The notes beneath the pieces are model-generated. The model saw only the letters and a program-made list of their open reading frames with translations, was not told where the DNA came from and did no database searches. A DNA stretch of 52,018 nucleotides from a bacterium (GTDB lineage Bacteria > Bacteroidota > Bacteroidia > Flavobacteriales_D > Sanyastnellaceae), in the NCBI GenBank assembly GCA_029979565.1, contig JAPOHG010000008.1:1-52018 (forward strand). The letters are read 5' to 3'. Below, piece by piece: positions 4,391 to 45,451 of the stretch. The first letter of the stretch is position 1. Every line of letters begins with the position of its first letter. Both the position numbers and the translations under genes were made by a program.

Positions 4391-5359
4391 TTATTTCACA
4401 ATTCGATTACGTTCTAATATACGACGAGAATTCATCGAGTTCGAGCGGAAGCCCGTAGAACGCGGTACAAAATAGGTTAAGCAAATCTCATGCGAATGCG
4501 GGCTGAGGTAGCTCGCAGCGGTACTCGTAATGTCATAAACATAGGACAACCCGAACGGTCCATATTGACCTCCTACGCCCATGACCAATGCATCATTGGT
4601 GCGGAAACCCAAGCTTACCCATGCCATATCAGCGTACCATCCACGGAGGTAAACATCGAGCTGCGCAGGGGTGCGCTCCGTGACGCGGACCAATGCTGAA
4701 GGCTCAATGATGAAGTCGTTGGAGACTTGGTACTTGTAATGGCCCATGAAGCGGAAATGGCGCACTTGTTTGTTGTCCAAACCACCTTGAATAGGTGAAT
4801 TTTCCAAGCCAGTCGATGATTGAATCAAATGGGGAACGGCAAAACCAAATGCATACGCCTCGCTAAAGACCATCATTCCGAAATGCGCATCAATGGAAAC
4901 GGATTGTTCCATGCCATAGGTCAATGCGGGATCTTCAACATCCCAGACATCGAGGTCATTGTCAAAGGACCACTGGTTCGCCATCAAGCTCAGTCCGAAT
5001 GACACGGCATCGTAGTTGTTCAAATCAATGGTGTAAGACCCGCCCAGTTCAATGCCGGTGCGCTTGATGGCACCGCCCGTATCATCCGAGTAAACGATGC
5101 CACCAACGCCAACCCGATTGGGCAGCGCAGTGTGGCCGCTGAGGGTCATCGTTTCGGGCGCACCTTCAAACCCAGTCCATTGGTTGCGGTACTGCATGGT
5201 GATGGGCGTTTCAGGGAGTGTGCCTGCAATGGCCGGGTTGCTCAAAAACGGATTTGTCATGAACTGCGAGCGGCGGAACAATTGCTGGGATTGTGCCTCA
5301 GGCGCTACCAAAGCGAGGCCCAAAGCCACAAAAAACAGGGGAAGAACGAATTGCTTCAT
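4391..5359 (-). CDS. PorP/SprF-family type IX secretion outer-membrane protein
   Basis: PorP/SprF proteins are outer-membrane beta-barrels that work with the T9SS in the secretion or surface anchoring of specific adhesins. The 322-residue product has a signal peptide (cleavage near AQSQ). Family hallmarks follow: QFMTNPFLSNPAIAG close to the N-terminus, then MQYRNQWTGFEGAPET, GGIVYSDDTGG, alternating beta-strand segments and an aromatic-rich C-terminal strand. It follows the adhesin gene by 7 bases on the same strand. This is the classic adhesin plus porP/sprF pairing, so its likely client is the adhesin upstream. Family assignment is strong; client specificity is inferred from the arrangement. 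Confidence 0.93.
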   Translation of the reverse strand: MKQFVLPLFFVALGLALVAPEAQSQQLFRRSQFMTNPFLSNPAIAGTLPETPITMQYRNQWTGFEGAPETMTLSGHTALPNRVGVGGIVYSDDTGGAIKRTGIELGGSYTIDLNNYDAVSFGLSLMANQWSFDNDLDVWDVEDPALTYGMEQSVSIDAHFGMMVFSEAYAFGFAVPHLIQSSTGLENSPIQGGLDNKQVRHFRFMGHYKYQVSNDFIIEPSALVRVTERTPAQLDVYLRGWYADMAWVSLGFRTNDALVMGVGGQYGPFGLSYVYDITSTAASYLSPHSHEICLTYFVPRSTGFRSNSMNSRRILERNRIVK

Positions 5360-5366
5360 GGGTGCT

Positions 5367-8300
5367 TCAGTATTTCAAGGTTACGGTGCCTGTAATTGGA
5401 TCCTTGTCACCGGCAAATTCAATGACATAATAGTAATCTGCTACCGGCAGCGGTGCATTGTTGTACCGGCCATCCCACCGTTCTTGGTACCCTCTCGAAT
5501 AGAACATCTGTTGGCCCCATCGGTTGAACACCCGCACTTCTGCCGTTGGGAAAAACTCCAATCCACCAACAATCCATTCGTCATTGTAGCCGTCCCCGTT
5601 CGGCGTAATCGCTTCAGCTATGAAAAAACAGCCAATGGTGGGGTCCACCGTAACAACGCGGGTTAACGTACATCCGAGGCTATCGGTGACGACTACGGAG
5701 TAAGTGTCTTCATACAACCCCGTCGCTGTAGCTGTCGTCTGGGCCCCTTCATCACTCCAGAGGTATTCAATGGGCTGGAATCCACCAACGACAGAAGCTG
5801 TCGCGGTGCCGTCCTGCTCATTCCAACACGTCACCGGCGAACTCAGCATGTTGATGATCATGTCCGTGTCCACATCCGCCGCAACGGTAAAGGCCGAGTC
5901 CTCAATGCAACCGGTTGAATCGATGGCCGTGACGTTGTAGATTCCTTCGTACAGGTTCAGTAAGTCGATGCCCTCCTCCAACACATCCCACGTGATGTCA
6001 CCTGTGCCACCGATTGGGAAGATGTTGACTTCTCCATCGTTCATCCCGGTGCACGTGACGTTGGTCACGTCGATGAGTACTTCAATCGGATCAGGCTCCG
6101 TGATTTCAAATTGGGTGGAATCCATGCATCCGTTCGCATCCACAACGGTGGCGGTGTATTGGCTCGCGCAAAGCGCTGCAAAATTGTAGTCCTCAAGGCC
6201 GTTCAGCGTCAGCAATACAGTGCCCGTGCCGCCACTGAAATCTATGATGGCCGTGCCATCGCAGTCGCCTCCACAAACAACGTCTTCCAAGAACAACCAC
6301 TCCACTTGAAGGGAATCAGGCTCAATGATTTCGGCCGCTTCGGTAATCAGACAACCATTTTCGTCCTGTACGGTGACACCAACGGGGCCCTCATCGAGAT
6401 TTTCCAAAGTGAACGGCAATGCACCGTCCTCCGGCTCCACCAGGCTCAATGCTCCGGTTCCTCCGATGCCTTCAACCGTCAAAAGGCCATCCGCATAAGA
6501 TGTACAGGTGATTTCCGTCGGAGTCAAAATCACTTGTATGGCGTCCGGCTCGATGAGCAACTGAGGATCCGAACTCACTTCGCATCCGACTTCATCCATG
6601 ACGGTTACGACATAGGTGCCTGCCGCCAAGTCAAAGCACGGGTCGAACTGAAACGCTCCCGCGGGTGGATCCACTTGGTAACTCAACGCCCCGGTTCCTC
6701 CTGCTGCATTTTCCACACAGATGGAACCGTTGGCTTCGCCATTGCAAGTGACGTCCTCGAGTACGACATCGAATAGAATGGAGTCCGGCGCCATCACTTG
6801 GAAGGCCTCCTGAACGACGCAACCATTTTCATCAATGGCATTTGCGAGGTAAGCACCAACACATAAGTCCTCATCGTCGTATTCGTTTTCATCGGCATCT
6901 GTGACCGTGTAATCGAATACGCCTGAACCCCCGAATGCTGCGATGTTTACCTCGCCCTCACACGCTTCTGCACACAGCAAATCCGTTACTGCGAGTTCAA
7001 TCGTTACCGGTTCGGGCTCCAGGATGGTCACGTTTGTTTCCACTTGGCATTCATTCGCATCGGTGACAATCAAGAGGTAGTCAGCCGCTTGAAGATCCGT
7101 GACCGTAAAATCCACCGTTCCTTCCCCGGATATGTTGGCGCCTAAGTTGGGCGACCCGGCCAACGTTAACGTGCCGGTACCTCCACTCATGTACCCCTCG
7201 ATGATGCCGTCACCATAAGCAAAGCAGGTAATGTCTTCAGCTGTGACTTCGAGGACCAGCGGATCGATGCACGAAATGGTGATGGAAGTGTCCAATGAAC
7301 ATCCGTTAGCGTCGTTGATTTCAAACTCCCATTCCCCGTTGCCGTCGATGCACTCGAGCCCCACCCATTGATTGTTCGGGTCTGAAAGAACGCCGGAACC
7401 TGTATTGGTGGCGGAATACGCAACGATTTGATAATTCGGTGTTCCCCCCGTAAAGTCAATTTCAACCACGCTGTTCAAATCACCTGGACAGGTGTTGTCT
7501 TGGAGTAATTCCCAGTCCGCTTGAAGTTCTGGCGGCTCAACAAAAGAGAACAAATCCGTGGAGTCCCGACAGGTATTGCCATCGACGATGGCCACGAAAT
7601 AGTCGCCTTCCACGAGGTCGTTGAATTCATTGTTGTCCACTTGGGTGGCAATCAAGGATGAATCGGATGCATCGTACAGTTCGTAGGTGATGGGCAGCGT
7701 ACCATTCGCGTTGACATCAACGCTCGCCAGGTCACCAAAGCAGTCAATGTCACTATTGACGGCAATGCTGGCGTTTGTTTGCGCATAGTTCGCGCAAGGG
7801 TTTGGAACGGATTCTGCGCCGAAGCCATCTCCTTCCATGCACCATTCTTGGTAAGGTGCTTGAACACCATCAACGAAGACTTGAAAGCAGGCTTGGAATT
7901 CAAAATCTCCACAGGTTGTAATCTGGGCAAATTGGATCCGCAAATCATCTCCTGCAGCCTCCGGAATTACCGTGAAAATAAGCCCACCGTCTTCCTGTTC
8001 CGCGCACATGGTGGTCGAAGCATAAGCCGGGTTGCTGCCTGTGTATTGCTCACCTACCGCAAAACCCAAGGTCCAGTAGGTATCGTAAGCCACCTCAGGG
8101 AAAAAATCAATAAGCGCAGGGTTTTGTGTGCCACCAAGCAAAACATCACCCAAACCAGGGTTAAAACAGCCACACGGAGCGTTGATGTAAAACGGCGCAG
8201 TCCCAAGGACTTCCGCATCGGAATAAATGGCGCTCAGCTCATCCGTCGGGTTCGTGAATTCAGCGAAGAGCTTGTACGTGACATACCCTTCCAACTCAGC

Positions 8301-8495
8301 GAAGAGGGGCTCACCCGCTCCATCGAATGTGGTGGGTTCGTAAAACGCAGTATCTACTTCCCAAGTTACTCCGGTCATTTGAGCGAATGCTGAACCGCTG
8401 ACCAATACCAAAGCCAGTGCGATGAGAAGCATACGGGGAGCAGAGGCCACGAGGCCGCGGAAGGTTAAGGGGTGAGAATTCACGAGTTCTTTCAT
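5367..8495 (-). CDS. SprB-like surface adhesin with CHU_C T9SS domain
   Basis: This is a large secreted protein, probably a cell-surface adhesin. I chose the ATG at 8495 because it gives a clean signal peptide (MKELV... to SAFAQ); an upstream start would add 15 non-signal residues. After the signal comes one copy of the shared unnamed module (TYKLFAEFTNP, DELSAIY, FFPEVAYDTYWTLG). Nine SprB-type Ig-like repeats of about 75-90 residues follow, each with a 'TC.G..DG' opening and a 'Y.V.V.D..GC' end. The C-terminus is a CHU_C / gliding-motility domain: AITPNGDGYND, then VRVFNRWGQQMFYS, ending VTLKY. The length is 1042 residues. The porP/sprF gene follows after 7 bases, presumably in one transcript. 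The ligand is unknown. Confidence 0.92.
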   Translation of the reverse strand: MKELVNSHPLTFRGLVASAPRMLLIALALVLVSGSAFAQMTGVTWEVDTAFYEPTTFDGAGEPLFAELEGYVTYKLFAEFTNPTDELSAIYSDAEVLGTAPFYINAPCGCFNPGLGDVLLGGTQNPALIDFFPEVAYDTYWTLGFAVGEQYTGSNPAYASTTMCAEQEDGGLIFTVIPEAAGDDLRIQFAQITTCGDFEFQACFQVFVDGVQAPYQEWCMEGDGFGAESVPNPCANYAQTNASIAVNSDIDCFGDLASVDVNANGTLPITYELYDASDSSLIATQVDNNEFNDLVEGDYFVAIVDGNTCRDSTDLFSFVEPPELQADWELLQDNTCPGDLNSVVEIDFTGGTPNYQIVAYSATNTGSGVLSDPNNQWVGLECIDGNGEWEFEINDANGCSLDTSITISCIDPLVLEVTAEDITCFAYGDGIIEGYMSGGTGTLTLAGSPNLGANISGEGTVDFTVTDLQAADYLLIVTDANECQVETNVTILEPEPVTIELAVTDLLCAEACEGEVNIAAFGGSGVFDYTVTDADENEYDDEDLCVGAYLANAIDENGCVVQEAFQVMAPDSILFDVVLEDVTCNGEANGSICVENAAGGTGALSYQVDPPAGAFQFDPCFDLAAGTYVVTVMDEVGCEVSSDPQLLIEPDAIQVILTPTEITCTSYADGLLTVEGIGGTGALSLVEPEDGALPFTLENLDEGPVGVTVQDENGCLITEAAEIIEPDSLQVEWLFLEDVVCGGDCDGTAIIDFSGGTGTVLLTLNGLEDYNFAALCASQYTATVVDANGCMDSTQFEITEPDPIEVLIDVTNVTCTGMNDGEVNIFPIGGTGDITWDVLEEGIDLLNLYEGIYNVTAIDSTGCIEDSAFTVAADVDTDMIINMLSSPVTCWNEQDGTATASVVGGFQPIEYLWSDEGAQTTATATGLYEDTYSVVVTDSLGCTLTRVVTVDPTIGCFFIAEAITPNGDGYNDEWIVGGLEFFPTAEVRVFNRWGQQMFYSRGYQERWDGRYNNAPLPVADYYYVIEFAGDKDPITGTVTLKY

Positions 8496-8570
8496 GAATG
8501 GTGTTTCAGGGTCTGCACGTAAAACAAGCCGCTTTTGCAAAACGTTGCTTGCTCAATTGAAAGCGCAAAA

Positions 8571-12738: not shown

Positions 12739-13610
12739 TGCCAGCAACCGGTCGAGCCACATCGGGCATAGCATGGATGGTCCTGGCGACCGTCTTGTAC
12801 ACCGCCGCCAATTTGTGCGTCAAGGCGTTGGCGCATTTACCCACTGGTGAACTGGTCTTCTTGCGCTCAGTCATCTCCTTGGTGCTGACAGGCGGCTGGC
12901 TCTGGTGGAACGGCTATTCCTTGTTTGGTGTGAACCGCAAATGGCTCCTCATCCGTGGCATTTTCGGTACGATCGGACTCGCCACCTTCTTTCATACGCT
13001 GCGCTTCATCCCCATTGCGAGCGCCACGGTCATCCAGTACCTGTCCCCCATCTTCACCGTGTTGCTCGCCCGCTACTTTGACGGTCAACGCTCAATGCGG
13101 CCGGTGCAGTGGTTGTTTTTTGCCACCGCGTTTGCCGGAGTGCTGATGGTCAAGGGGTTCGATCCGCGCATCAATTGGTTCTATTTCGGACTGGGTGTGA
13201 GCAGCGCCATGGCCGCTGGAGTGGCCTACCTCGCCACAATGAAATGCCGCGAGACGGATCACCCGGTTGGGGTGGTTATCTGGTTTCACCTCGTCGCCGT
13301 ACCGGTAACCGGGGGATGGACGGCGTTCACCTGGGTTCCCCCGGTTGGCAACGAATGGCTGCTCGCTTTGGCTGTGGGCCTGCTAAGCGTGGTAGCACAG
13401 GTGGCCATGACGTTCGCCCTTCACCAAGGCGAAGCAAATGTTATCATGCCATTCAAGTACTTCGGAGCCGTCCTCGCTTTCATTTTCGGGTTGCTGCTGT
13501 TCGACGAGCATCTCAATCAATGGGCCTTGGCCGGCATCGGGTTGGTCATCCTGTCCGTGACCGTCAACACCGTGCTCAAACGGCGTTGGGAACAGAAACC
13601 ATCGACTTAA
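12738..13610 (+). CDS. EamA/DMT-family transporter
   Basis: This is an integral membrane protein of the drug/metabolite transporter superfamily. The 290-residue chain alternates hydrophobic segments consistent with ten helices in two EamA repeats. The first repeat includes FLRSVISLVLTGG and FFHTLRFIPIASATVIQYLSPIF, the usual position of the conserved EamA motif. The second ends in MPFKYFGAVLAFIFGLLLFDE. I chose the ATG at 12738, which overlaps the icmF stop (ATGA); a GTG one codon earlier is also possible. Coupling to icmF suggests export of a metabolite linked to branched acyl-CoA metabolism, but the substrate cannot be read from the sequence. Its end overlaps the convergent aminotransferase by 4 bases. 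Confidence 0.9.
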   Translation: MPATGRATSGIAWMVLATVLYTAANLCVKALAHLPTGELVFLRSVISLVLTGGWLWWNGYSLFGVNRKWLLIRGIFGTIGLATFFHTLRFIPIASATVIQYLSPIFTVLLARYFDGQRSMRPVQWLFFATAFAGVLMVKGFDPRINWFYFGLGVSSAMAAGVAYLATMKCRETDHPVGVVIWFHLVAVPVTGGWTAFTWVPPVGNEWLLALAVGLLSVVAQVAMTFALHQGEANVIMPFKYFGAVLAFIFGLLLFDEHLNQWALAGIGLVILSVTVNTVLKRRWEQKPST

Positions 13611-14512
13611 CGCAGCCGCACCGCCTGTTCCCAGCTTTGCGTACGGTAGATACCTTGCAGTCGCTCAGTAACCGGGCCCATGCCCGTTGAGGCGCCGATG
13701 CGCCGTCCATCGATTTCCACCACGTGCGCCAAGCCGCCCATCGTTCCAGTCGTGAAGACCTCGTCAGCTGTGTAAAATTCCGTCAGACTCACGCGGCGTT
13801 CATCCACCGGAATATTAGCTCCGCGCGCAAGCTCCAGCACCAATTGCCGCGTCAACCCCGGCAGGCAAGCCACCGCAGTTGGGGTGACGAGGGTGCCGTT
13901 GCGTACAGCGAAGACATTGGTCGCATTGGTTTCAGCGATGAAGCCTTCGCCATCGAGCATCAAGGCATCGTCCACTCCGGCAACGTTAGCCTCGATCTTT
14001 GCGAGGATGTTATTGAGCAGGTTGTTGTGGTGGATCTTAGAATCGAGGAATGCGGGATTGTTACGGCGAATGGCGGAGGTCACCAGCCGAATCCCTTCGT
14101 CGCCGTAGACCATGCCTTTGTATTCAGGCAGCACAATCAATGTGGTTCCAAACACATTCAGTCGCGGGTCCATGCCGCTCGTGCTTTTCATGCCGCGCGT
14201 CAGGGTGATGCGGCAGTGAACACCATCTGTCATGCCATTGGCTTTGAGCGTGGCAAAAATCGCATCCTCCACATCCGCTCGGGTCGGAATAGCAGCAAAG
14301 GCAAGTGCATGGGCAGAGTCCAGCAAGCGGCTGATGTGTTCGTCGAACTGCAATGCTCGCCCATTCAGAATGCGCAAGCCCTCCCACACGGCATCGCCGC
14401 CCTGAACGACACTGTCGAGCACACTCACCTTGGCCTCCGCTCGGGGTACCAGTCCGTTGACCCAAACAAGGGTGTCCGCGTTGCGCGGGTCCGGTTGGTT
14501 GAATTTTGCCAT
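13607..14512 (-). CDS. Class IV aminotransferase (branched-chain / D-amino-acid type)
   Basis: This is a PLP-dependent fold-type IV enzyme, likely moving an amino group between an amino acid and a 2-oxo acid. The 301-residue product begins a typical class IV N-terminus (VWVNGLVPRAEAKVSVLDS, DAVWEGLRI). Lys159 in LDSKIHHNNLLNN is the expected Schiff-base lysine. Glu194 in AETNATNVF contacts the PLP ring nitrogen. A LPGLTRQ segment follows and TTGTMGG lies near the C-terminus. It is shorter than or equal to IlvE, and substrate (branched-chain, D-amino acid or aminodeoxychorismate) is not settled by these motifs. It is the last gene of a four-gene minus-strand unit, starting 4 bases after the sulfotransferase-like gene. 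Related plant and bacterial proteins fuse the same two domains, as I recall, which supports a functional pair. Confidence 0.9.
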   Translation of the reverse strand: MAKFNQPDPRNADTLVWVNGLVPRAEAKVSVLDSVVQGGDAVWEGLRILNGRALQFDEHISRLLDSAHALAFAAIPTRADVEDAIFATLKANGMTDGVHCRITLTRGMKSTSGMDPRLNVFGTTLIVLPEYKGMVYGDEGIRLVTSAIRRNNPAFLDSKIHHNNLLNNILAKIEANVAGVDDALMLDGEGFIAETNATNVFAVRNGTLVTPTAVACLPGLTRQLVLELARGANIPVDERRVSLTEFYTADEVFTTGTMGGLAHVVEIDGRRIGASTGMGPVTERLQGIYRTQSWEQAVRLR

Positions 14513-14516
14513 GGGA

Positions 14517-15233
14517 TCAGTTCAATGCACGAGCGCGCAGGAATTCATACAGCGGCTCTGTTTCTGCAACTAAAGGTAAGAACCGCTCCTCGACAGGCGG
14601 TAATGAATCCGTGTCCGTCGCAGGGGCCTTTTCCCATCCGGTGGAGGCGTGCACGCGGTGGTACCAGTACTTGGCCCACGGGCCGTCTTCCTGACGCGGA
14701 CCGGCAGGCCACTCAAGCATGCACGAATCGAAGTCCACGCCCAGCCAATCCATGAGCGCCCTCAAGGACCGTTCAGGCGCCGCAACAAGGCGATCGGAAT
14801 CCAACACGGCCGCCGGCCATCCTTCCGCCTCACAACGTTCTAGCCACGCCGCTTGGTGGTGGTAGCATAAATCCAGAGCGGTGGGCGCATCGATGTGCGC
14901 TCGGTACGATTTCAATACTTTCAGAGGATGGCGCGTAAGGAGCACATGCTTGTGCTTTGCAAAATCTTCCGGCTCAGGCCAACCTTCCAAGTGGTTCGCC
15001 ATGTGCTTTAGGAACACGTGCGCTTCAGACCGTTCAAGCGTGGGCAGAATGCTCGCCCGCTCGGCAGGCATCGACGCAAGCACCTCCGCACGCGAAGGGC
15101 GCTCAGCACCGGTCTGCTTCAAGAAATGGGCAAACAAAGGCTCGTCGACCACTCCGAAGTCGGGCCGCTGCGCAAAGCTGTACATCAAGGCTGTGCTGCA
15201 ATTGCGGGGGCCGGACCACAGGGAAACGGTCAT
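14517..15233 (-). CDS. Sulfotransferase-like P-loop protein
   Basis: The 238-residue cytoplasmic protein (no signal) opens with SLWSGPRNCSTALMYSF, a degenerate P-loop like the 5'-phosphosulfate loop of PAPS sulfotransferases. It continues with VVDEPLFAHFL, VFLKHMANHL and HVLLTRHPLKVLKSYRAH. The RHP segment corresponds to the 3'-phosphate-binding strand of this fold. Acceptor and activity are unknown. The family includes members fused to or placed beside class IV aminotransferases, and here the aminotransferase starts 4 bases downstream. The gene begins 6 bases after the stop of the CotH-kinase gene, so it may be co-transcribed with the secreted pair upstream. Whether it works with them or only shares the transcript is open. 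Confidence 0.8.
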   Translation of the reverse strand: MTVSLWSGPRNCSTALMYSFAQRPDFGVVDEPLFAHFLKQTGAERPSRAEVLASMPAERASILPTLERSEAHVFLKHMANHLEGWPEPEDFAKHKHVLLTRHPLKVLKSYRAHIDAPTALDLCYHHQAAWLERCEAEGWPAAVLDSDRLVAAPERSLRALMDWLGVDFDSCMLEWPAGPRQEDGPWAKYWYHRVHASTGWEKAPATDTDSLPPVEERFLPLVAETEPLYEFLRARALN

Positions 15234-15239
15234 GGAGCT

Positions 15240-18200
15240 TTACCGAACGACCGTAATGCTTCCAGAATACGCACGGGGGACCATCTCGTGGACCGACTGC
15301 ACCGTCAAGCGGTACATGTACTGCCCATCACGGACGAAGTGATCTCCGCCTTGGTGCTGCCCAATCCAGGGCTCCTTGGGGTCAAACGATTCAAACACCT
15401 TTTCACCCCATCGGTTGATGACGATTAGGTGGTACGTCTCCGCGACAAACGATGTCCCCACCGGCAAGAACGCGTCGTTCAAACCGTCGTTGTTGGGGCT
15501 GAACGCCGTCGGAACATAGACCGCGAAGTCAATCGGTACGAAGTACGCTACGAGCTCTTCTTGGTCTTGCTTGGGCAAGGTGATGTTGGCCGCATTGGCG
15601 CTGGGGTTGGGTGCCGAGTTGGCAATTTCCCATCGGTCAAACGCCCAATTCTCCACAGGAGCAGCTTCGGCGTTGAGCAAGCCCGCGATTTCGAGGCCAC
15701 CCTCCCACTCATCCGTCACAATGACCGCACCACCTTCGACGCGGACGACGCCTTTGTTCGGTGGCTCCACGCGGACCTTGAGGTCGCTGTGCTCGATGAC
15801 GTTGAAGTGAGCCGTGTACGTGGCAGGCTCGGTTACAGAGATGCTCCCGGCTGGGTTGGCCATGGAAGGAACAACCTGTGGACCGGTCGACGACCAACCT
15901 GTGAAGACGTGCCATTCATCCAATCCGACCGCCTGTACGTTGTGCGCGCCGTATTCAAGCAATTCTGTTGCGGGGTAGTCCACCAGAGCCGTTCCGTCGA
16001 CGTAGATCTCTCCGGCGCCGGCCGGTTCGACGATGAAGGTGACTTCTTGCGGATCAGCATTGGACGCGAAGTACGCTACCAATGTCGCATCGCCACTCAG
16101 CGTAAAGCCGAGGTAGGGGTTTGTGGGGTCGTTCAACGTGATATCCCCTTCCACCACTTGCCAGAACAGGAAGACTTCGCCGAGGGTCTCCTGGGCAGTC
16201 AATTCCATCGGCACACCTGCAAAATACGTGGCATCCATCGGAACATCGAATGGACCGATGTCCACAGAATTCACCTGGACCTCACCCATGCCATCGATGA
16301 TGAGGGTCAGCGTAACCGATTCCACTTCGTAGCAATCTTCTAGGCCATTGATGAGCATTTCCGCACATCGCTCCTCAATAAAGTCGTGGATTTCGTCCAC
16401 GTTGGCCATCCAACCGTCATAATTACCGCCCCAGCGATCAATGTGGCGGCCCATTTCCGGTTCGATGACGTTGATCATGCTGTCCAGCACCGCGTGCATG
16501 TTGTCGCAGCTGAAGTGCGTATTGCTCAAGTCGGCCCAACGGTTGATGTACGTCGCCCAGAATTCCTCGTTTTCCATTAAGGAATTGAAAATCGGAATGT
16601 GCCCTTGGCCACCTACGTTTCCGAGCGACTCGGGATTGCACGGATCTGCATCAGGCGATTGAGAAGGAACGCCCGTGTAATTCGCCCCGTGGCCAAACGT
16701 GTTGTCCATGTCCCACAATGCGTAGCGCCACTTCTTGCCGCTGCCATCGGGATGGCGGCCGCGCCACCACGCGGTGTTCCAGTTCAACCAGTCGGCACAT
16801 ACGGTAAACGAGTTGAGCAAGTAGTAATCAATCAAGCTCATCACGTTGTACACGCTCGTCACGTATTCGTAGTTGTCCGGATCGGTCATGTCTTGACCGG
16901 TCACGAAGTTCACCAGCGGCGCCCAATCGGCATTGTCACCGTACTCTACCCACGTACCGCCCCACGTCTTGATGAAATCAACAAAATGACGCGGTTGGTC
17001 GTAGTACTCCGTGGTGAAATCGAGGTCATCCACTTTCTCGCGGTATTCATACACGCCCCAGTATTCCCCGTTCAGGTAGACGATGCAGCTCTCGTTTGTG
17101 CGCTCGTCAATGTGCAAATCCGCCAAATGGCTCAGCGTCTGCACGTAGGCGTCGCGGATGTGTCCGCCGCCTGAACTGGGGTAGTTGTCGTTTGCCGCGG
17201 CCTTGAAAATCAAACGCTGGTACACATCGCGCTCCTTCACGTGGAAGAGTGGCTCCAACAGGCCATAGCTGTGGCCCATCTGATCACGGGTGATGTAGTC
17301 AAATCCCTTCTGCGGGTAGGCATTCGAATCGTTACCGTGTTCGTTGGAGTCACCTGAACCCTCGCACCAGTAGGTACCGTCGGGATGGAAGAATTCAATG
17401 TGGCACGGCTCGTCTGCTCCACCGCCCCATCCACCGGGCCATTGGCCGTCCTCTTGGCCGTCGCCGGAAACCGAAACCACGATGATGCTGTGGCTGTCTT
17501 CTCCAGTAAAATAGGTGTTCGTGTTGATGTGGGAATCCGCGTACGCTCCGGTGGGATCAAAGCACCGCGCGCGAATGACCGTTGTCTCGTTGACCGCGAT
17601 GGGTCCTGTATACAATGGGCTGCCAGGGTTCGGCGCGTAACCGTCCGTCGTGTATCGGATGTCGTAGCCAGCAGGAGCGGTAATGGCCACATTGGTGCCG
17701 CCCGCATAGTAACCAGACTCTTCTTGGAACTGCGGCGTCGGCGCGTACTCGGTGTAGAAGTTTCCGCCGTTGGGATTGCCCGGAGTGGGATCTGTGCACA
17801 CGCGCCATTGGCCTGCCACACCGTCCGTGTCGCGAGACCAACTGTGGTCGGCTTGCGTCGGTGTCCAGTCTTCGTAGAAGGTGTAGGATTCGAGGATGTT
17901 TCCGGCCGGGTCCGAGAATACCACCGACTCCCCCATCGTTTGCGTCACCTTGAAATTCGTATTCAAGTTGCCTCCGATGTACAGGTTTTCGGGTACTTCG
18001 CCCTCGTTCGAGCAAATGATCAACAAATAACCGCCGGCCGCAATGGTCGTCCCCGCGGGGATTTCGAACATTTGGGGATTGTCGGGATTGTCGGACAACC
18101 AGTGCCCGTCGAGATCAACCGCCGTCGGTCCTTGGTTGTAAAATTCGATGTAATCCTCGTTGTCGCCGTTTACGCCCAACGTATAGTTGCTGGCCGAAAA

Positions 18201-18293
18201 CTCATTGATGATCACCTGCGCAGAGGCTGCAGAGGCAACCAAGCACGCAAAAGCGACGAGGAAAGGGATGGTCAAGAAGTGCTTACGCATCAT
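15240..18293 (-). CDS. Secreted CotH-kinase protein with lamin-tail, chitobiase-like and CHU_C domains
   Basis: The 1017-residue product has a signal peptide ending SAASAQ. A lamin-tail domain (VIINEFSASNY, EDYIEFYN, DLDGHWLSDN) spans roughly residues 25-130. A chitobiase/hexosaminidase C-terminal-like domain follows (YDIRYTTDGYAPNPG, TVIRARCFDPTG) at about 205-265. Then comes the CotH kinase-like domain, about 340-640 (YQRLIFKAAANDNYP, YLNGEYWGVYEYREKVDD, YALWDMDNTFGHG). CotH family members are atypical protein kinases; the WDMD..FG and E-K-VDD elements look intact. Three beta repeats resembling InlB B-repeats (FLFWQVVEGD, VFTGWSSTG, FDRWEIANS) precede a CHU_C domain (TAFSPNNDGLNDAF, VINRWGEKVFESF) for T9SS export. 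The start overlaps the stop of the lysyl-oxidase gene (ATGA), so the two are translationally coupled. Confidence 0.9.
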   Translation of the reverse strand: MMRKHFLTIPFLVAFACLVASAASAQVIINEFSASNYTLGVNGDNEDYIEFYNQGPTAVDLDGHWLSDNPDNPQMFEIPAGTTIAAGGYLLIICSNEGEVPENLYIGGNLNTNFKVTQTMGESVVFSDPAGNILESYTFYEDWTPTQADHSWSRDTDGVAGQWRVCTDPTPGNPNGGNFYTEYAPTPQFQEESGYYAGGTNVAITAPAGYDIRYTTDGYAPNPGSPLYTGPIAVNETTVIRARCFDPTGAYADSHINTNTYFTGEDSHSIIVVSVSGDGQEDGQWPGGWGGGADEPCHIEFFHPDGTYWCEGSGDSNEHGNDSNAYPQKGFDYITRDQMGHSYGLLEPLFHVKERDVYQRLIFKAAANDNYPSSGGGHIRDAYVQTLSHLADLHIDERTNESCIVYLNGEYWGVYEYREKVDDLDFTTEYYDQPRHFVDFIKTWGGTWVEYGDNADWAPLVNFVTGQDMTDPDNYEYVTSVYNVMSLIDYYLLNSFTVCADWLNWNTAWWRGRHPDGSGKKWRYALWDMDNTFGHGANYTGVPSQSPDADPCNPESLGNVGGQGHIPIFNSLMENEEFWATYINRWADLSNTHFSCDNMHAVLDSMINVIEPEMGRHIDRWGGNYDGWMANVDEIHDFIEERCAEMLINGLEDCYEVESVTLTLIIDGMGEVQVNSVDIGPFDVPMDATYFAGVPMELTAQETLGEVFLFWQVVEGDITLNDPTNPYLGFTLSGDATLVAYFASNADPQEVTFIVEPAGAGEIYVDGTALVDYPATELLEYGAHNVQAVGLDEWHVFTGWSSTGPQVVPSMANPAGSISVTEPATYTAHFNVIEHSDLKVRVEPPNKGVVRVEGGAVIVTDEWEGGLEIAGLLNAEAAPVENWAFDRWEIANSAPNPSANAANITLPKQDQEELVAYFVPIDFAVYVPTAFSPNNDGLNDAFLPVGTSFVAETYHLIVINRWGEKVFESFDPKEPWIGQHQGGDHFVRDGQYMYRLTVQSVHEMVPRAYSGSITVVR

Positions 18294-21235
18294 TGAATGT
18301 TCAATTGGCCGGTAAATACTGGCGTTGCAGGTCCAGAGAGGGTGTAAAGGTAGGTTCCACTTCGAAGCGCACCGCGGTCAATGGTGTACGAGGTGCCTGA
18401 AGGGTTGGCCGTGTGCACCACGCGACCGGTCGGATCGGTGATGGTCAAAAGCATGGGCTGACGCGTTGGGTTGGCAAACCGCAACGTCGCGTAATCCGTC
18501 ATAGGGTTTGGGTAGAGCATCGGAGCAGCGGCATCGATGGCCTCAGCCACACCGCTCGAAGTAACACACCCTTCCTCAATGACATTCAACGTGTTGTGGT
18601 AATCTTCATTGACGACGTCCGTGACAAAATCAATGCACACTTCGTCTTCAATGGTAGCCCAGTACAGACGCACCAGCGGCACGAACTCGTAGTGTTTCGG
18701 AAAGCTCATGTCTTCGTACGACAGGCCAATGACTTCCACGCCGCCTGGGGTGAACGAGGGAGTGATGGAGTACTCGATGGGATCCGCGAGGCTCACTGCC
18801 GAAGAGATCGCCATGCCACTCATGGAGAATTGATACCCTACGATGCGGTTGTTGGGGTTGTGAACGTAGATGTCCATGTATTGCTGCCCCCAGTTGACGG
18901 CACCGATGGTGAAATGCACCGTATCAAATGGATTGACGATGTGGTTCACCGGGAAATCACACTTGTCGTGGAATCCCGAGCTATCGGGGTGCTGGTGAAG
19001 CTCGTTGTAGAGCTGGCACAGCGCCAAGTGGGCTGCATCCGTCACCGTGATTTCGTCGTCTTGGTCGACGTCCGTACAAGGCAGCGCTTCGATGTCGTCG
19101 CCAAGGATGTGCTCAACGTAAGCCACGGCATCGGCGTACTCCTGAGCGCCGTTGTTGTCGAGATCACCCATAAGAGCCGTGCCGTTGCAGTCGCCATTGC
19201 AGTCGGTCACTGCGGTACCGAACTCGGTACCTTCACAGTCGCTAAAGGGTTCGCAATCCCCTACCACGTCAACTTGCAGTTCGCCGGTTGAACGGTCGAG
19301 GTTGATGCACACAGCCGCGTGGTTGTTCTCATAGGAATTCTCGGCGCGTCCAAGTGCGTCCGGGATGAAGTCGTAATTCGCGCGAACGATCAAGTAGTAG
19401 GTGCCGTCCGCAACATCCGTCACATCGATCCATTGGCAGCTCAATCCCGAGCCGTAGATGTCTCCGCAGCCCGCCGATATGCCCATGTTACCGCAGCCGT
19501 ACTGGCCGGTACCGCCGCCACTGCATTCCAGGTCCATGACGCAGAAACCGTTTTTGAACCCGATGGGAATGTACTGACCTTCGAGCGTGAAGAGGTCGTA
19601 CTTGGCGTAGCCTTTGTGGTGCCAGTGGCTGTGGCAATCGCCCCATTCAAACTGGTTGTTGTCCGCCTGACTGGGAACGCCGATGTAGTAATCCAGCGTA
19701 CCGATGTTGAGGATGTGCGTCGTGAAACGGACCAACTCGCGGTCGCCATATCCATTCAAGCACCCCTCTTCGATGTAGCAGTCGGTCTCGCTCACCTGCA
19801 TGACTTGCGAGGACAGGCTGTTGATGATGGCTTGGGCACTGACAATCAAATCCGGACCTGTGCAGTCGGGATCCCCGGGGTAAATGCAGTCTCCGCTGTC
19901 CACCTCGGCGAGCGGATTGTAATTGCACGCCTCTTCATCCGTGCAGCCTGTTGGCGGGCCGGCAAAGTTGAATTCCCAATTGAAGCCATCAGCACAGGCC
20001 CCATCGGGGTCTGCCAGTAGCAATTCGGCATCGAAACTGATGTCAGAGCTCGTGGCGTTGATCTGGTGCACCTCCACCGCCAGTACATTCGCACCGTTGT
20101 TCATGTTCAAAGCAACCGGGTATTCGTACAACTCGGATTCGTTACCACCCACAATTTCACTCAGAGCAGTGGTCTCGGAGTTCACAAACCCATCGGGCAT
20201 GTTGCTGCGCATGATTTCCACCCCGTTGAGGTACACCACAGCGCCGTCGTCGCGGCGCAACCGCAGCAGTCCTTCCATTCCCGTTCCTGACTCTCCCGTG
20301 TAGTCAAAGGTGTGGCGGAAGTACGTCGTGATGTGCTTATCCGAAGCATTGTCACCGTACGAGACTGTTGTCGCCTCATCGCCGTCGCCGTAGCCCAATT
20401 CCGCATTGCCAGCAGCCCAGTCCGCATCGTCATAGTCCGTCGCGGTCCAATCGGATCCCAGGTCTGCGCCCTGGTCGTGGTAACTCCACTCGGATTCTAA
20501 ATCGACCAAAGTGGCATAATCGGGCGAACCCAATCCCATGCGAATCCACACGGGGGTTCCGCCTGCCAACAGCACCGTCAGGTTGGCTTCCTCGCCGCAA
20601 CCTCCTTCTTCGTCGTCGAAGTAAATGGTGCCCTCATTGGTGTTGTCAAAACTGCCCATGTTGCAGTATTCGTAGATCCACAGCTTCGTATCGCAACCGG
20701 TCCCGCAGGTGTTGAACTCGTACATGCCATTCGCCGGCGGAGTGAAAACGTACCACGCGTTGCCCTGTGTTTGAGAAATGGTGCCGTAGTCGGCCTCGGT
20801 CAATTCAAACGCATCGTTGCAGGTCGCTCCTGGTGCGCAGTCGAAGCTGACGGTCTCACCGTAGCCGTAATTGCCCCCTGTCGCGATTTGCACGCCGTCT
20901 TGGTAAACGTAGTATCCACCGGGTGCGAAAATGCCATCGCCGTAGGAATCGAAAATGCTGAATTGCAGGCAAGGCTGTTCGATGGTGGCATCGAAGCACA
21001 CCACGCCTCCTTCCGCATCCGTGCCCGAGCCGATGATTTCACCTTGGTAGGTCAGTTCCCATGATATTTCCCACGGATAACCGTCCGGTTCAATGACCAC
21101 TTCAATTTCGGTCTCATTGTCTGCACACTGGCTCCATGCGGGCGCACCAGCCCAAACAAAAAGCAACAACAACGCCCAAGGGAAGGCGTTCAAACGGGAA
21201 GAAAATGCCAACATAGGTTTCAATTTGGTGGTCAA
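18290..21235 (-). CDS. Secreted lysyl-oxidase-domain protein with T9SS type A sorting domain
   Basis: Lysyl oxidases are copper enzymes that deaminate lysines to allysine and so cross-link proteins. The 981-residue product has a signal peptide (ending PAWSQ) and an N-terminal domain shared with the protein at 24692-26596 (SWELTYQGE, FDSYGDGIF). A PPC-like segment follows (YVFTPPANGMYEF). Next is a jelly-roll-like domain (WSYHDQGADLGSDW, LRLRRDDGAVVYLNG) and one Cys-rich repeat (GCTDEEACNYN). The lysyl oxidase domain runs about residues 470-665. It has CHSHWHH (Cu ligands His535, His537, His539), Lys561 in IGFKNGFC and Tyr594 in GCGDIYGSGLSCQWID. By alignment from memory to human LOX, these match the Lys and Tyr that form lysine tyrosylquinone. 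A dockerin-like pair (GDLDNNGAQEYADAV; DVDQDDEITVTDAAH) and a T9SS type A domain (LYPNPMTDYATLRF) end the chain. First gene of the four-gene unit. Confidence 0.9.
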   Translation of the reverse strand: MTTKLKPMLAFSSRLNAFPWALLLLFVWAGAPAWSQCADNETEIEVVIEPDGYPWEISWELTYQGEIIGSGTDAEGGVVCFDATIEQPCLQFSIFDSYGDGIFAPGGYYVYQDGVQIATGGNYGYGETVSFDCAPGATCNDAFELTEADYGTISQTQGNAWYVFTPPANGMYEFNTCGTGCDTKLWIYEYCNMGSFDNTNEGTIYFDDEEGGCGEEANLTVLLAGGTPVWIRMGLGSPDYATLVDLESEWSYHDQGADLGSDWTATDYDDADWAAGNAELGYGDGDEATTVSYGDNASDKHITTYFRHTFDYTGESGTGMEGLLRLRRDDGAVVYLNGVEIMRSNMPDGFVNSETTALSEIVGGNESELYEYPVALNMNNGANVLAVEVHQINATSSDISFDAELLLADPDGACADGFNWEFNFAGPPTGCTDEEACNYNPLAEVDSGDCIYPGDPDCTGPDLIVSAQAIINSLSSQVMQVSETDCYIEEGCLNGYGDRELVRFTTHILNIGTLDYYIGVPSQADNNQFEWGDCHSHWHHKGYAKYDLFTLEGQYIPIGFKNGFCVMDLECSGGGTGQYGCGNMGISAGCGDIYGSGLSCQWIDVTDVADGTYYLIVRANYDFIPDALGRAENSYENNHAAVCINLDRSTGELQVDVVGDCEPFSDCEGTEFGTAVTDCNGDCNGTALMGDLDNNGAQEYADAVAYVEHILGDDIEALPCTDVDQDDEITVTDAAHLALCQLYNELHQHPDSSGFHDKCDFPVNHIVNPFDTVHFTIGAVNWGQQYMDIYVHNPNNRIVGYQFSMSGMAISSAVSLADPIEYSITPSFTPGGVEVIGLSYEDMSFPKHYEFVPLVRLYWATIEDEVCIDFVTDVVNEDYHNTLNVIEEGCVTSSGVAEAIDAAAPMLYPNPMTDYATLRFANPTRQPMLLTITDPTGRVVHTANPSGTSYTIDRGALRSGTYLYTLSGPATPVFTGQLNIQ

Positions 21236-21337: not shown

Positions 21338-21466
21338 ATGGCACACGACCCTTCACACGACCACGGACACCACGCAGAACCAGAACAGAATGAAATCGGC
21401 GGACCCGTCGTTTTCGCGTTGATTTTGTTCGGCTTGGTTGTGACCGTTATCGCCTTCTTGGCGTAA
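21338..21466 (+). CDS. 42-residue His-rich single-span membrane peptide
   Basis: The product starts MAHDPSHDHGHHAEPEQ, with five histidines within the first dozen residues. After a short acidic linker a hydrophobic helix runs from GGPVV to the C-terminal AFLA. This looks like a one-span membrane peptide with a metal-binding-like tail. I do not recognise the family. Small subunits of respiratory oxidases can look like this, but nothing nearby supports that. Support for a real gene: an exact TAnnTTTG box 4 bases before the ATG, a sensible signal-anchor layout, and no other coding frame in this gap. It is convergent with the S46 peptidase gene. Confidence 0.6.
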   Translation: MAHDPSHDHGHHAEPEQNEIGGPVVFALILFGLVVTVIAFLA

Positions 21467-23662: not shown

Positions 23663-24718
23663 ATGGAGTTGAACGCTGATTTCCGGTCGGATACGCTGAC
23701 CCGACCCACCCCAGCCATGCTGGATGCGATGCACGCCGCCCGTACCGGGGACGACGTCTTTGCCGAAGACCCCACCACCGAGGCTTTCCAGCAACGGTGC
23801 GCGGACCTATTTGGCCACGAGGCGGCGCTGTTCTGCCCTTCCGGAACCATGACCAACCAGATCGCCATCAACGTTCATGTCCGGCCCGGTGACGAGGTCA
23901 TTTGCGACCGAATGGCGCACATCTACAATTACGAAGGTGGCGGCATTGCGCGCAACTCCGGCGCTTCCGTTCGCCTACTGCATGGCGACCACGGACGGTT
24001 CAGCTGGGAAGACGCTGCAGCGGAAATCAACCCGGCTGATAGCCACTACGCCCGCACCTCGCTCGTGTGCATCGAAGACACGTGCAACCGCGGTGGTGGA
24101 GCGGTGTGGGACGTAAAGGAAATTCAGACCATTCGCGAAGGCTGCGATGCGGCTGGGCTGCCCTTGCACCTCGACGGAGCACGGTGTTGGAATGCCATGG
24201 TGGCACGTGCAGGAAATACACTGCCGGCTGCAGCGGACTGGAAGGCCTACGGACAGTTGTTCGATTCCATTTCAGTGTGCTTCTCCAAAGGCCTCGGTGC
24301 ACCCGTTGGTTCCGTCTTGATCGGCTCCAAAGCCTTCATAGCAGAAGCGCACCGTTCGCGCAAAGTATTTGGCGGAGGGATGCGCCAGATTGGTGTTTTG
24401 ACAGCGGCTTGCAACCATGCCTTGGATCACGAATTGCCTCGGCTTCAAGAGGACCACATCCGGGCCAAGCAAATCGGAGACGTGCTCGCAGGACTGAGCC
24501 AGGTCACATCCGTCGATCCCGTTGAGACCAACATTGTCATTTTCGAGATCGCCTCAGGTTTAACAGCAGCAGAATTTGTTGAAGCTGCCACACGGGACGG
24601 CATCCACTGTTTCGCTTTCGGGCCCCAGCGGGTGCGCTTGGTCGTCCACCGCGATCTCAATCAAGGTCAGATTGACGCCACGTGCTCGGCGTTAACGCAA
24701 TCCGTGCTGAACCGCTAG
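23663..24718 (+). CDS. ltaE: Low-specificity L-threonine aldolase
   Basis: This PLP enzyme cleaves L-threonine or allo-threonine to glycine and acetaldehyde. The 351-residue product begins MELNADFRSDTLTRPTPAML, the family N-terminus. GDDVFAEDPTT follows, then GHEAALFCPSGTMTNQIA, CIEDTCNRGGGAVW, HLDGARCWNA (Asp171 contacts PLP) and SVCFSKGLGAPVGS with the Schiff-base Lys209. I chose the ATG at 23663 over a GTG at 23657 because the GTG overlaps the -7 box. The gene end overlaps by 27 bases the end of the convergent T9SS protein gene. The role is probably threonine catabolism or glycine supply. Confidence 0.95.
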   Translation: MELNADFRSDTLTRPTPAMLDAMHAARTGDDVFAEDPTTEAFQQRCADLFGHEAALFCPSGTMTNQIAINVHVRPGDEVICDRMAHIYNYEGGGIARNSGASVRLLHGDHGRFSWEDAAAEINPADSHYARTSLVCIEDTCNRGGGAVWDVKEIQTIREGCDAAGLPLHLDGARCWNAMVARAGNTLPAAADWKAYGQLFDSISVCFSKGLGAPVGSVLIGSKAFIAEAHRSRKVFGGGMRQIGVLTAACNHALDHELPRLQEDHIRAKQIGDVLAGLSQVTSVDPVETNIVIFEIASGLTAAEFVEAATRDGIHCFAFGPQRVRLVVHRDLNQGQIDATCSALTQSVLNR

Positions 24719-26596
24719 TTGGCGCACAATCACGCGTTCATCGTCTTGGAACTGCAACACGTATTGACCGTTTTTCCAGCCGGCCACGTCGAACACGGCT
24801 GTTGAGCTGCCCATCCATTGTGTGGACGCTACTTCACGTCCAGCCAAATCAAAGGCACGAACGGTCCAACCGCTCGACCCCGGGTCGACTTCGAAGAACA
24901 CATCTTGGGCCGACGGGTTGGGGTACAACACGGCATCGCCCAGCCCGACTTCACCAACCCCAACCGAGCAGTCGTGCACCGTCAGGATCATGGCATCGGC
25001 GAATTCACAACCGGAGTCGGTTGTTCCGCTGAGGACGATGCTGTACGTCCCCGGCGCAAAATCACCTGGCGAAACGTAAAAGAACTGGTTGTTGGAACCG
25101 TCTTGCCATTCGTAGTCGTAGCCAAGCGGTCCATAAATCAGCAGCGGCTCATCCTCGCAGATGATGGTGTCGTTGCCAATGGTGAAATCACTGGGCTCTA
25201 CCTCTGGAACAAATGCAGTCACGGGGTAGGCACAGCCATTGGCATCGGTCAAGTTCAACTGGTAGGTTCCCGGTGACAGGCTGTCGAGGTTTTGCTGTTC
25301 AGAGGTGAACTCATTGGGGCCGGTCCACGTAAAGGTGTAAGGATCTGAAGCGCCTTCCACCTCAATTTCAATGACCCCGTCCGAGGCCTCTTCGCAACTT
25401 GCTTCAGTGACCGTAGTGCTCACGCTCCAAGCTTCTGGCGCAGCAACGGTGCGCTCAATGGTGAATTGGGTACCGCAGGTCGTGGTGATGTCAGCCGTGT
25501 ACACCCCAGGGGCCAAGTCAAAAATCCATGAATCGGTCGAAGTGTACCCATTTGGCCCTGACCACGTGCAATCGAAATCCGATCCTCCCTGGTTGACGTA
25601 GGCCAAGATGAACCCATCCGGTGCCGTGTCTTTGTCCAATGGGCACGCCACATTGCGTACCTGTGCGTCAGCAGACGCGTCGTAGGCCTCTGAAGTGAAA
25701 ACGGAGACATCAGCATCGCCGGTTTGGCCTGCCCATCCATCCACTTGGATGTAGTACGTTTCACCCACTTCCAAGCAACTCGTGTACATCGTCGAACGGT
25801 AGCCCGCACACCAATCGTCATTGGCCCCGACCAACTCATAGGTCGAGAAATCGCCGCAATCGGTGGCCCGGTACAGGGCCAATTGCGTGTCAAACGTCGA
25901 GAACTCCGAACACGTGGTGATGGTCACAGGGTCCGTCGTTTCAGGTGTGAAGGTCAACCATACGGAGCTCGAGGCGTACCCGTCCGACCCGCACCACGAT
26001 CCGGGTAAGCTGCATGAACCGCTCGGCGCTGGCCCAGGACTCATCTCTCCCGATTCAACTGTACCGCCACCTGAAGTCACCACGACGGATTCGCCATTCA
26101 CTTCAATGGGAGCCGCATCGCACGGGACGTCGTTGTCAATAAACAAGCTCTCCCCTGCCGTAAACGTCCACACGTTGCCGTATCCAGTGCCATTGAAAAT
26201 TCCGGAGATGACGCCGTCCATGTAGAGATCAAACCGATTGCCGCCGTCGCCGTAACTGTCTACATGAATCAAATCCACCACAGTACCCGCAGCCACGCAG
26301 AAGGGTCCTTCGGTGTAGATGGCGTTGTTGCCGTAGGTTGTACCGCCATTGCCGCCATTGCCGGCTCCGTCGCACCCTACATTGGCCGAATTGCCGCCGC
26401 TGGCGATGAAATTTTCACCTCCGCAGGCCTCTCCGGTAGGCGTAAGCTCCCAGTACAATTCGTAGCCCCATGGGTCCGTATCGATGACGAATTCGATGGC
26501 GACTTCGCCTGCTTCACACTGCGCCTGTGCGCCGGGAAGAGAGAACACAAAAAGGGAAGCAATTAAGAAGAGGAATGCAGGTAAAAAGTGACGCAT
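24692..26596 (-). CDS. Secreted multi-domain protein with T9SS type A sorting domain
   Basis: The product has 634 residues and a signal peptide ending GAQAQ. The N-terminal region (YELYWELTPTGE, DSYGDGGNRFDLYMDG) resembles the N-terminus of the lysyl-oxidase protein at 18290-21235. A PPC-like, jelly-roll segment follows (SSVWLTFTPETTDPVTITTC, FDTQLALYRATDCGDF, YYIQVDGWAGQTGD). Next come three Ig-like segments, one of SprB type (EASCEEASDGVIEIEVEG, GTYQLNLTDANGC). The type A sorting domain (AVLYPNPSAQDVFFEV ... NGQYVLQFQDDE) directs export by T9SS. No catalytic domain is visible, so it is more likely structural or binding. It is divergent from yaaA. Confidence 0.88.
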   Translation of the reverse strand: MRHFLPAFLFLIASLFVFSLPGAQAQCEAGEVAIEFVIDTDPWGYELYWELTPTGEACGGENFIASGGNSANVGCDGAGNGGNGGTTYGNNAIYTEGPFCVAAGTVVDLIHVDSYGDGGNRFDLYMDGVISGIFNGTGYGNVWTFTAGESLFIDNDVPCDAAPIEVNGESVVVTSGGGTVESGEMSPGPAPSGSCSLPGSWCGSDGYASSSVWLTFTPETTDPVTITTCSEFSTFDTQLALYRATDCGDFSTYELVGANDDWCAGYRSTMYTSCLEVGETYYIQVDGWAGQTGDADVSVFTSEAYDASADAQVRNVACPLDKDTAPDGFILAYVNQGGSDFDCTWSGPNGYTSTDSWIFDLAPGVYTADITTTCGTQFTIERTVAAPEAWSVSTTVTEASCEEASDGVIEIEVEGASDPYTFTWTGPNEFTSEQQNLDSLSPGTYQLNLTDANGCAYPVTAFVPEVEPSDFTIGNDTIICEDEPLLIYGPLGYDYEWQDGSNNQFFYVSPGDFAPGTYSIVLSGTTDSGCEFADAMILTVHDCSVGVGEVGLGDAVLYPNPSAQDVFFEVDPGSSGWTVRAFDLAGREVASTQWMGSSTAVFDVAGWKNGQYVLQFQDDERVIVRQLAVQHGLR

Positions 26597-45420: not shown

Positions 45421-45451
45421 CAAAGATAGGATACATGCTGGGAATTTCAAA
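45421..45451 (-). promoter_or_regulatory. Promoter of rpmE (TTTG-N19-TATCTTTG)
   Basis: On the minus strand, TTTG (45451-45448) and TATCTTTG (45428-45421) are separated by exactly 19 bases, a full match to the Bacteroidota consensus. The box ends 29 bases before the rpmE ATG. This is the best promoter in the window. Confidence 0.75.

Follow-up and report, generated by a model that had tools for sequence, protein, structure and literature searches.

In Sanyastnellaceae, a family of the Bacteroidota, a lysyl oxidase (LOX) and a CotH-type kinase-family protein form a lineage-specific and conserved pairing of two known enzyme families, each carrying a surface signal of the type IX secretion system (T9SS). 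The pair was analyzed here in the window, a stretch of 52,018 nucleotides (contig JAPOHG010000008.1 of the assembly GCA_029979565.1), in which it is followed by an unrelated pair encoding a sulfotransferase-like protein (ST5) and a class IV aminotransferase (AT4). Lysyl oxidases are best known as the enzymes hardening animal connective tissue.

The explanation that we consider probable is as follows. LOX is most likely a copper- and lysine tyrosylquinone (LTQ)-dependent oxidase acting on primary amines outside the cell, which would convert lysine side chains of proteins or peptides, and possibly free amines, to aldehydes, ammonia and hydrogen peroxide. The CotH-type protein, old in the order, would reach the surface via the other T9SS signal type. 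The LOX gene would have come to lie ahead of a CotH gene already present, and one clade kept both tightly coupled and may transcribe them together; since this coupling was kept, some shared surface task is plausible. ST5 and AT4 would be an independent cytoplasmic pair that follows by chance in two genera (g1 and g14; genera, loci and genomes are denoted below by g, L and G numbers).

Conservation and distribution of the LOX-CotH pair

The window corresponds to C87, one of the 96 contigs of a 1.96-Mb genome that is incomplete (approximately 80%) and whose closest relatives, judged by LOX, are uncultured Flavobacteriales assemblies (best 80 of 337). Open reading frames (ORFs) were called in the neighborhoods of a selection of LOX matches and relatives (again the best 80 of 337), and a quick tree was built from 125 distinct LOX sequences. 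A CotH gene lies directly downstream of LOX in 39 rows of this tree and does not in 68, the other 18 having too little visible DNA. One clade of 43 rows has CotH next on the same strand in all 38 informative members; five rows are cut by contig ends, in two of which a CotH-like N-terminus was recognized by eye at the end of the contig. The 39th row is basal and belongs to g10. In total, six genera of the family possess the pair: g1, g7 (L227), g10, g14, g18 and g21. An earlier note on this DNA, made from the sequence alone, had tied its operon reading to retention of the pair in related genomes, and such retention is what the tree reveals.

The distance between the two genes, with the leftmost start used, falls between -23 and +43 bases in 36 of 37 loci and is +147 bases in the remaining one; even where LOX identity is down to 60-63%, the genes still overlap or nearly abut. 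The gene after CotH in these 37 loci is ST5 (14 loci), an EamA gene (6), a mutase gene (2) or an unlabelled ORF (11), with the contig ending there in 4. In 10 further loci from eight genera of the family (g3, g4, g5, g8, g13, g15, g17 and g19), a gene for an S46 peptidase is followed by CotH without LOX between them, some of these loci having small unlabelled ORFs in the interval; this arrangement fits an insertion of LOX ahead of CotH. Other LOX genes have other surroundings. Genera g18 and g21 have a second lineage of LOX genes with no CotH beside them, and in several loci such a LOX gene follows a gene for a glucose/sorbosone-dehydrogenase-like secreted protein (L185 by Pfam; L186 and L178 by eye). 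LOX genes of a third lineage are situated on the far side of the mutase gene or at other sites. Outside the family, CotH does not follow any of the 13 strong LOX genes (10 of which were informative).

LOX is nearly a trait of the whole family and is seldom met beyond it, because matches were obtained in 100 of the 114 genomes of the window's family versus 4 of the 395 genomes of the phylum sample, namely the window genome, one more family member and two weak matches. In the order sample, 133 of 299 genomes matched, the 33 outside the family comprising 13 strong (E <= 1e-20) and 20 weak matches. The window-type CotH domain is strongly matched (E <= 1e-60) in 228 of these 299 genomes and matched at 1e-20 in 264, the 36 weaker matches between the two thresholds having been counted by eye. 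The strong matches divide into 104 genomes of the family and 124 outside it; among the latter, the LOX match is strong in 11 and weak in another 19. This wider occurrence of CotH in the order suggests that CotH is the older partner and that LOX joined later. Among the 114 family genomes, 94 contain both genes, 10 CotH only, 6 LOX only and 4 neither, so LOX and CotH do not need each other; the association (Fisher p 0.02) is unreliable because completeness is 64-86% in the four genomes that have neither gene. In addition, 112 of the 114 family genomes have a CotH domain of some type, and the window's genome has four CotH-domain genes (five matches).

Anatomy of the locus and of the two surface proteins

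The four genes lie on the minus strand in the order LOX, CotH, ST5 and AT4, and all of them are open at the positions given in Table 1. LOX and CotH share an ATGA overlap, with a second ATG directly after the CotH start; 6 bases separate the CotH stop from ST5, and 4 bases separate ST5 from AT4. These junctions agree with those described in the earlier note, and its four protein identities were each recovered by Pfam (Lysyl_oxidase, CotH, Sulfotransfer_5 and Aminotran_4). For LOX, the ATG at 21214, after which a signal-peptide-like stretch was seen by eye, is a more likely start than the TTG at 21235 that had been listed. The earlier note would have given up the operon had internal promoters and terminators separated the genes; none stands out between 13400 and 21800, where 2 sigma-70-like sites were counted versus 3.8 expected, and 8 terminator-like sites versus 7.9 expected. 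The sole Bacteroidota-type promoter match of the whole window is at 45421 (0.58 expected), so there is no promoter evidence ahead of LOX.

Table 1. Features of the four-gene locus and of the LOX and CotH proteins
Feature	Position	Strand	Basis
Secreted lysyl oxidase (LOX), 974 aa, with type A T9SS C-terminal domain	18290..21214	-	ORF; PF01186 1.6e-32; PF18962 4.9e-08
Extra domain of LOX, ~180 aa, inserted ahead of the oxidase domain	19991..20533	-	Alignment
Lysyl oxidase domain (copper histidines H528, H530, H532; LTQ residues K554 and Y587)	19295..19852	-	
Dockerin-like calcium-loop pair after the oxidase domain	19010..19168	-	Homologue L066; two helices in model
Beta-rich domain of no known sequence family	18557..18961	-	Model
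Type A T9SS sorting domain of LOX	18335..18517	-	PF18962 and TIGR04183, both above cut-off
ATGA overlap, LOX stop and CotH start	18290..18293	-	Sequence
Secreted CotH-type kinase-family protein, 1017 aa: LTD, CHB_HEX_C, CotH domain, type B T9SS domain	15240..18293	-	Pfam (CotH PF08757, LTD, CHB_HEX_C_1, CHU_C)
CotH domain (E419, D501, D528, D530 kept)	16362..17339	-	PF08757 2.8e-32
Type B (CHU_C) T9SS signal of CotH	15255..15515	-	PF13585 6.4e-13, above cut-off
Sulfotransferase-like protein (ST5)	14517..15233	-	Sulfotransfer_5 PF19798 1.9e-44
Class IV aminotransferase (AT4)	13607..14512	-	Aminotran_4 PF01063 1.3e-45

The oxidase domain of LOX scores 113.2 bits against PF01186 (curated cut-off 20.4). 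The residues of its copper site (three histidines) and of its LTQ cofactor (one lysine, one tyrosine), whose roles are taken from a survey of prokaryotic LOX (PMC4448552), are invariant in 81 of 81 LOX ORFs (loci L031-L115). By sequence, the best PDB relative is human LOXL2 (5ze3, 1e-23), and a search with the single sequence matched no other PDB entry. A structural model of LOX (mean pLDDT 79.5, pTM 0.54) retrieved the same structure at rank 1 in a fold search (2.9e-13), with modest TM-scores of 0.18/0.39 over 232 columns; the hits that follow are multi-domain glycosidases at a root-mean-square deviation (rmsd) of approximately 30 A and are of little meaning. The window protein thus shares with animal LOX and LOXL2 the oxidase domain, the copper histidines and the LTQ residues, whereas it differs from them in its bacterial origin, its other N-terminal domains, its dockerin-like module and its T9SS signal, and in that the fold match is modest.

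Of the 53 LOX proteins aligned, 12 contain the extra domain ahead of the oxidase domain; all 12 were assigned to genus g1, in which one genome (G053) is without it. At E 0.001, the approximately 80% complete genome has one other match to this domain, in a CotH paralogue (contig 55; 37% identity, 1.2e-15). The module behind the oxidase domain is dockerin-like and is not a proven dockerin, because homologue L066 passes the Dockerin_1 cut-off of 22.9 bits (6.6e-09, 36.3 bits) while the window protein stays below it (3.4, 8.4 bits); the LOX family profile matches the dockerins 2mte (0.02) and 1daq (0.021). A cohesin domain behind this module was considered for the beta-rich domain and rejected, the fold search giving only a weak match to the cohesin-FN3 construct 2w1n (rank 45, rmsd 17.8) and sequence support being none.

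Bacteroidetes LOX as such is already known, since the survey mentioned above lists this phylum as one of five bacterial clades that have LOX; according to the same survey, most prokaryotic LOX proteins consist of the LOX domain alone (PMC4448552). The window LOX differs from these homologues as a multi-domain T9SS protein coupled to CotH. The archaeal enzyme from Haloterrigena turkmenica was active once truncated and refolded with copper; its authors describe what prokaryotic lysyl oxidases do in nature as enigmatic, and the role of the enzyme assayed as cryptic (PMC6452851). The earlier note had known of no system with the present combination; likewise, a described LOX-CotH system of Bacteroidetes or Flavobacteriales, or a T9SS or dockerin LOX, was not found in the open-access literature, subscription journals lying mostly outside this search.

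The CotH domain scores 113 bits (cut-off 23.8), and its residues E419, D501, D528 and D530 are invariant in 30 of 30 sequences and also in 40 of 40 sequences spanning several families. A PDB search by sequence with the window CotH subfamily gave no CotH match. The comparison with the spore-coat kinases runs through a CotH paralogue, which matches Bacillus CotH (5jd9) at 1.4e-18: D528 aligns plainly with D251, and D501 corresponds to D228 by residue counting, a doubtful mapping since MAFFT placed the aspartate of the paralogues opposite N506. Loss of D228 or D251 inactivates Bacillus CotH (PMC7821199). The window protein shares with these kinases the CotH domain and would share the acidic residues, the equivalent of D228 with the alignment doubt just given, and differs from them in its T9SS signal and its LTD and CHU_C domains; its kinase activity is putative.

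The C-terminus of CotH reaches 28.5 bits with TIGR04131, under the cut-off of 35, and the T9SS cargo signal peptides of both LOX and CotH were judged by eye only. Type B T9SS substrates are known to be served by PorP/SprF shuttles (PMC12618676, PMC9143113). The window CotH resembles them in its CHU_C signal, and a PorP/SprF-like gene is next on the same strand after its orthologues of other families in 19 of the 39 loci mapped (24 of the 39 lie outside the family), this neighbor having been checked by Pfam in one locus (PF11751, 5.7e-37). Such a gene order has been described for type B cargo (PMC12618676). It differs from them in that no PorP/SprF shuttle was found beside it, the six PorP/SprF matches of the genome lying elsewhere. 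In other families, a small lipoprotein-like gene flanks CotH in 16 loci, in 13 of them just before it on the opposite strand, and a DUF2490-like gene stands two before CotH on the opposite strand in 13 loci; L208 6127-6828 and L203 10767-11159 are examples of these neighbors.

Upstream of LOX, on the opposite strand, a 42-residue histidine-rich membrane-like ORF (21338-21463, +) lies between LOX and the S46 peptidase gene. It was matched at 52-95% identity in 49 of the 80 relative loci (best 80 of 337), and a Pfam scan of it gave no match.

Possible roles of the pair

Several observations weigh against a link between LOX and CotH. Of the 228 order genomes with strong CotH matches, 123 are without a strong LOX match; within the family, CotH is kept in 10 of the 14 genomes lacking LOX and is absent from 6 of the 100 bearing it. 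The S46 peptidase gene lies at most two ORFs upstream of LOX in 31 of 32 loci (excluding five loci of insufficient length), which is about as conserved as CotH downstream. The adjacency needs only two changes on the tree and may be one ancestral event. The sister LOX clade of 12 rows (11 of the g20 type and L156) shows no CotH behind LOX in its 11 informative members; in the g20-type loci EamA follows LOX, and in the g20 genomes CotH lies on other contigs than LOX. The structural model of CotH is poor (mean pLDDT 54, the kinase region mostly below 50). Finally, a kinase outside the cell would need a source of ATP there. What the locus does provide is a testable question, as LOX is carried by 100 of 114 family genomes, keeps its catalytic residues in all 81 ORFs inspected, has a likely surface route and, within one clade, is tied to a constant neighbor gene.

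It is possible, if not what we favor, that LOX serves as an amine oxidase for scavenging or offense, deaminating foreign peptides or free amines at the cell surface to gain ammonium or producing hydrogen peroxide, with CotH as a passenger. The neighboring genes for the S46 peptidase, a threonine aldolase and an aminotransferase would suit such a role, as would the lysine-poor surface proteins of the window itself, and the Haloterrigena enzyme oxidizes many primary amines, including taurine and glycine (PMC6452851). However, the one PDB relative by sequence is the matrix enzyme LOXL2, and the small antisense ORF separates S46 from LOX, co-expression of the peptidase and aldolase genes with LOX being putative. 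If LOX does deaminate environmental amines, it would represent an overlooked step in organic nitrogen turnover.

We are more doubtful that the adjacency is an inherited gene order without functional meaning. The small number of changes on the tree, the about equally conserved S46 gene and the separation of CotH from LOX, both in g20 and in loci with LOX on the far side of the mutase gene, are all consistent with it. It is opposed by the persistence of the overlap or near-zero gap at the LOX divergence given above, while the gene after CotH varies by genus.

That LOX and CotH act on one common extracellular protein, LOX cross-linking its lysines and CotH phosphorylating its serines or threonines so as to mature a surface matrix or an adhesin, appears unlikely; cross-linking plus phosphorylation of an extracellular protein had been suggested in the earlier note. 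This proposal draws on the tight conserved coupling, the T9SS signals of both proteins, the accessory domain common to the window LOX and a CotH paralogue, and the finding that Bacillus CotH polyphosphorylates a coat protein, an activity that matters for coat assembly (PMC7821199). Against it stand the wide occurrence of the window CotH type without LOX, the other LOX clades of this family in which LOX is not accompanied by CotH, the scarcity of lysine in the surface proteins of the window, and the result that no substrate gene kept beside the pair was found in the loci mapped. Still less credence is given to the fuller version, in which a T9SS-exported LOX and a CotH kinase made together would jointly modify surface or matrix proteins by aldehyde cross-links on rare lysines and by phosphorylation, with LOX held by its dockerin-like module and the domain shared with CotH. 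If the pair does modify surface proteins, oxidative matrix cross-linking would no longer be a peculiarity of animals and their relatives, and joint modification would give one family of Flavobacteriales a bacterial parallel to the maturation of animal extracellular matrix.

The lysine counts behind this argument are 7 in 974 residues for LOX, 14 in 1017 for CotH, 5 in 1057 for an adhesin with SprB repeats and 2 in 634 for the protein encoded at 24692, all T9SS proteins, and 3 in 1765 for the exported-looking protein encoded at 34623. Overall, the T9SS proteins and large exported-looking proteins of the window contain 0.2-1.4% lysine versus 0.7-6.4% for the other genes listed. Because these surface proteins offer few lysines, the notion that they would be cross-linked among themselves is weakened. 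In CotH orthologues, lysine makes up 1.2-1.6% in the window's family versus 1.7-3.3% in other families (locus G+C 41-46%), and it is equally low (0.8-1.6%) in family members lacking LOX.

A specific avoidance of lysine in the presence of LOX was also considered. The sample comprised 69 T9SS proteins from 18 of 20 chosen genomes (G043 and G025 gave none) among the matches listed; these are the strongest matches and not a random draw, and the "other" genes used for comparison, 1 to 14 per genome, were filtered only by a crude hydrophobic-start rule. The ratio of lysine in T9SS proteins to that in other genes was 0.08-0.43 in five LOX-bearing and 0.23-0.60 in three LOX-lacking genomes of the family, and 0.30-0.48 in four LOX-bearing and 0.21-0.57 in six LOX-lacking genomes of other families. 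Avoidance specific to LOX was rejected, the ratios being alike with and without LOX in this small sample; low lysine and arginine looked general in the sampled surface proteins of the order. Within the window, the products of 34623-39920 (-), 24692-26596 (-) and 30174-33008 (-) are exported-looking and contain very little of both residues.

The SprB-repeat protein is a type B T9SS adhesin encoded at 5367-8540 (-) and followed by a PorP/SprF gene at 4391-5359 (-). In other genera of the family, an SprB-repeat adhesin occurs near the LOX or mutase gene, its best match in the window's genome being 5370-8426 of the window at 43% identity. As a substrate of LOX it is a poor candidate, because the window protein holds only five lysines.

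The sulfotransferase-aminotransferase pair

ST5 and AT4 constitute a separate pair of their own. Of the 30 loci with the best scores, 29 have the two side by side, the exception being a contig end; all 30 belong to the window's family, 18 of them to genus g1. ST5 was matched in 76 of 249 order genomes. The best NCBIfam match of AT4, below the cut-off, is the branched-chain aminotransferase subfamily. In g18, EamA follows CotH, and ST5-AT4 lies beyond EamA on the opposite strand; in g21, neither gene adjoins LOX-CotH, and ST5 is on other contigs; in g20, the pair is located beside the mutase gene; and in g29 it is apart from CotH in L220 and L222 (by approximately 5 kb in the latter). The four-gene order is kept in g1, g14 and L135 and broken in g18, g20, g21 and g10, so that the four-gene unit drawn in the earlier note is not supported. 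Its suggestion that the two cytoplasmic enzymes form a separate pair sharing the transcript gains from the same comparison as far as separateness is concerned, and the recurrence of sulfotransferase-like and aminotransferase genes side by side, which it had given as known, is evident within the family.

A single functional pathway of all four genes, to which the common strand, the short gaps and the order retained in g1, g14 and L135 would point, is very improbable and was rejected because ST5-AT4 moves independently of LOX-CotH, being inverted or elsewhere in g18, g20 and g21 and apart from CotH in both g29 loci.

In plants, P-loop and branched-chain aminotransferase-like domains are fused; a single literature search on related subjects gave no paper, and the fusion is not used as support here. 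A plasmid search for the sulfotransferase yielded only two distant sulfotransferases from Streptomyces. An apparently decaying ST5-like copy with six in-frame stops is located at G098:C24:2903-3541. In the window, the AT4 and EamA genes are convergent, and their ends overlap by 4 bases (13607-13610).

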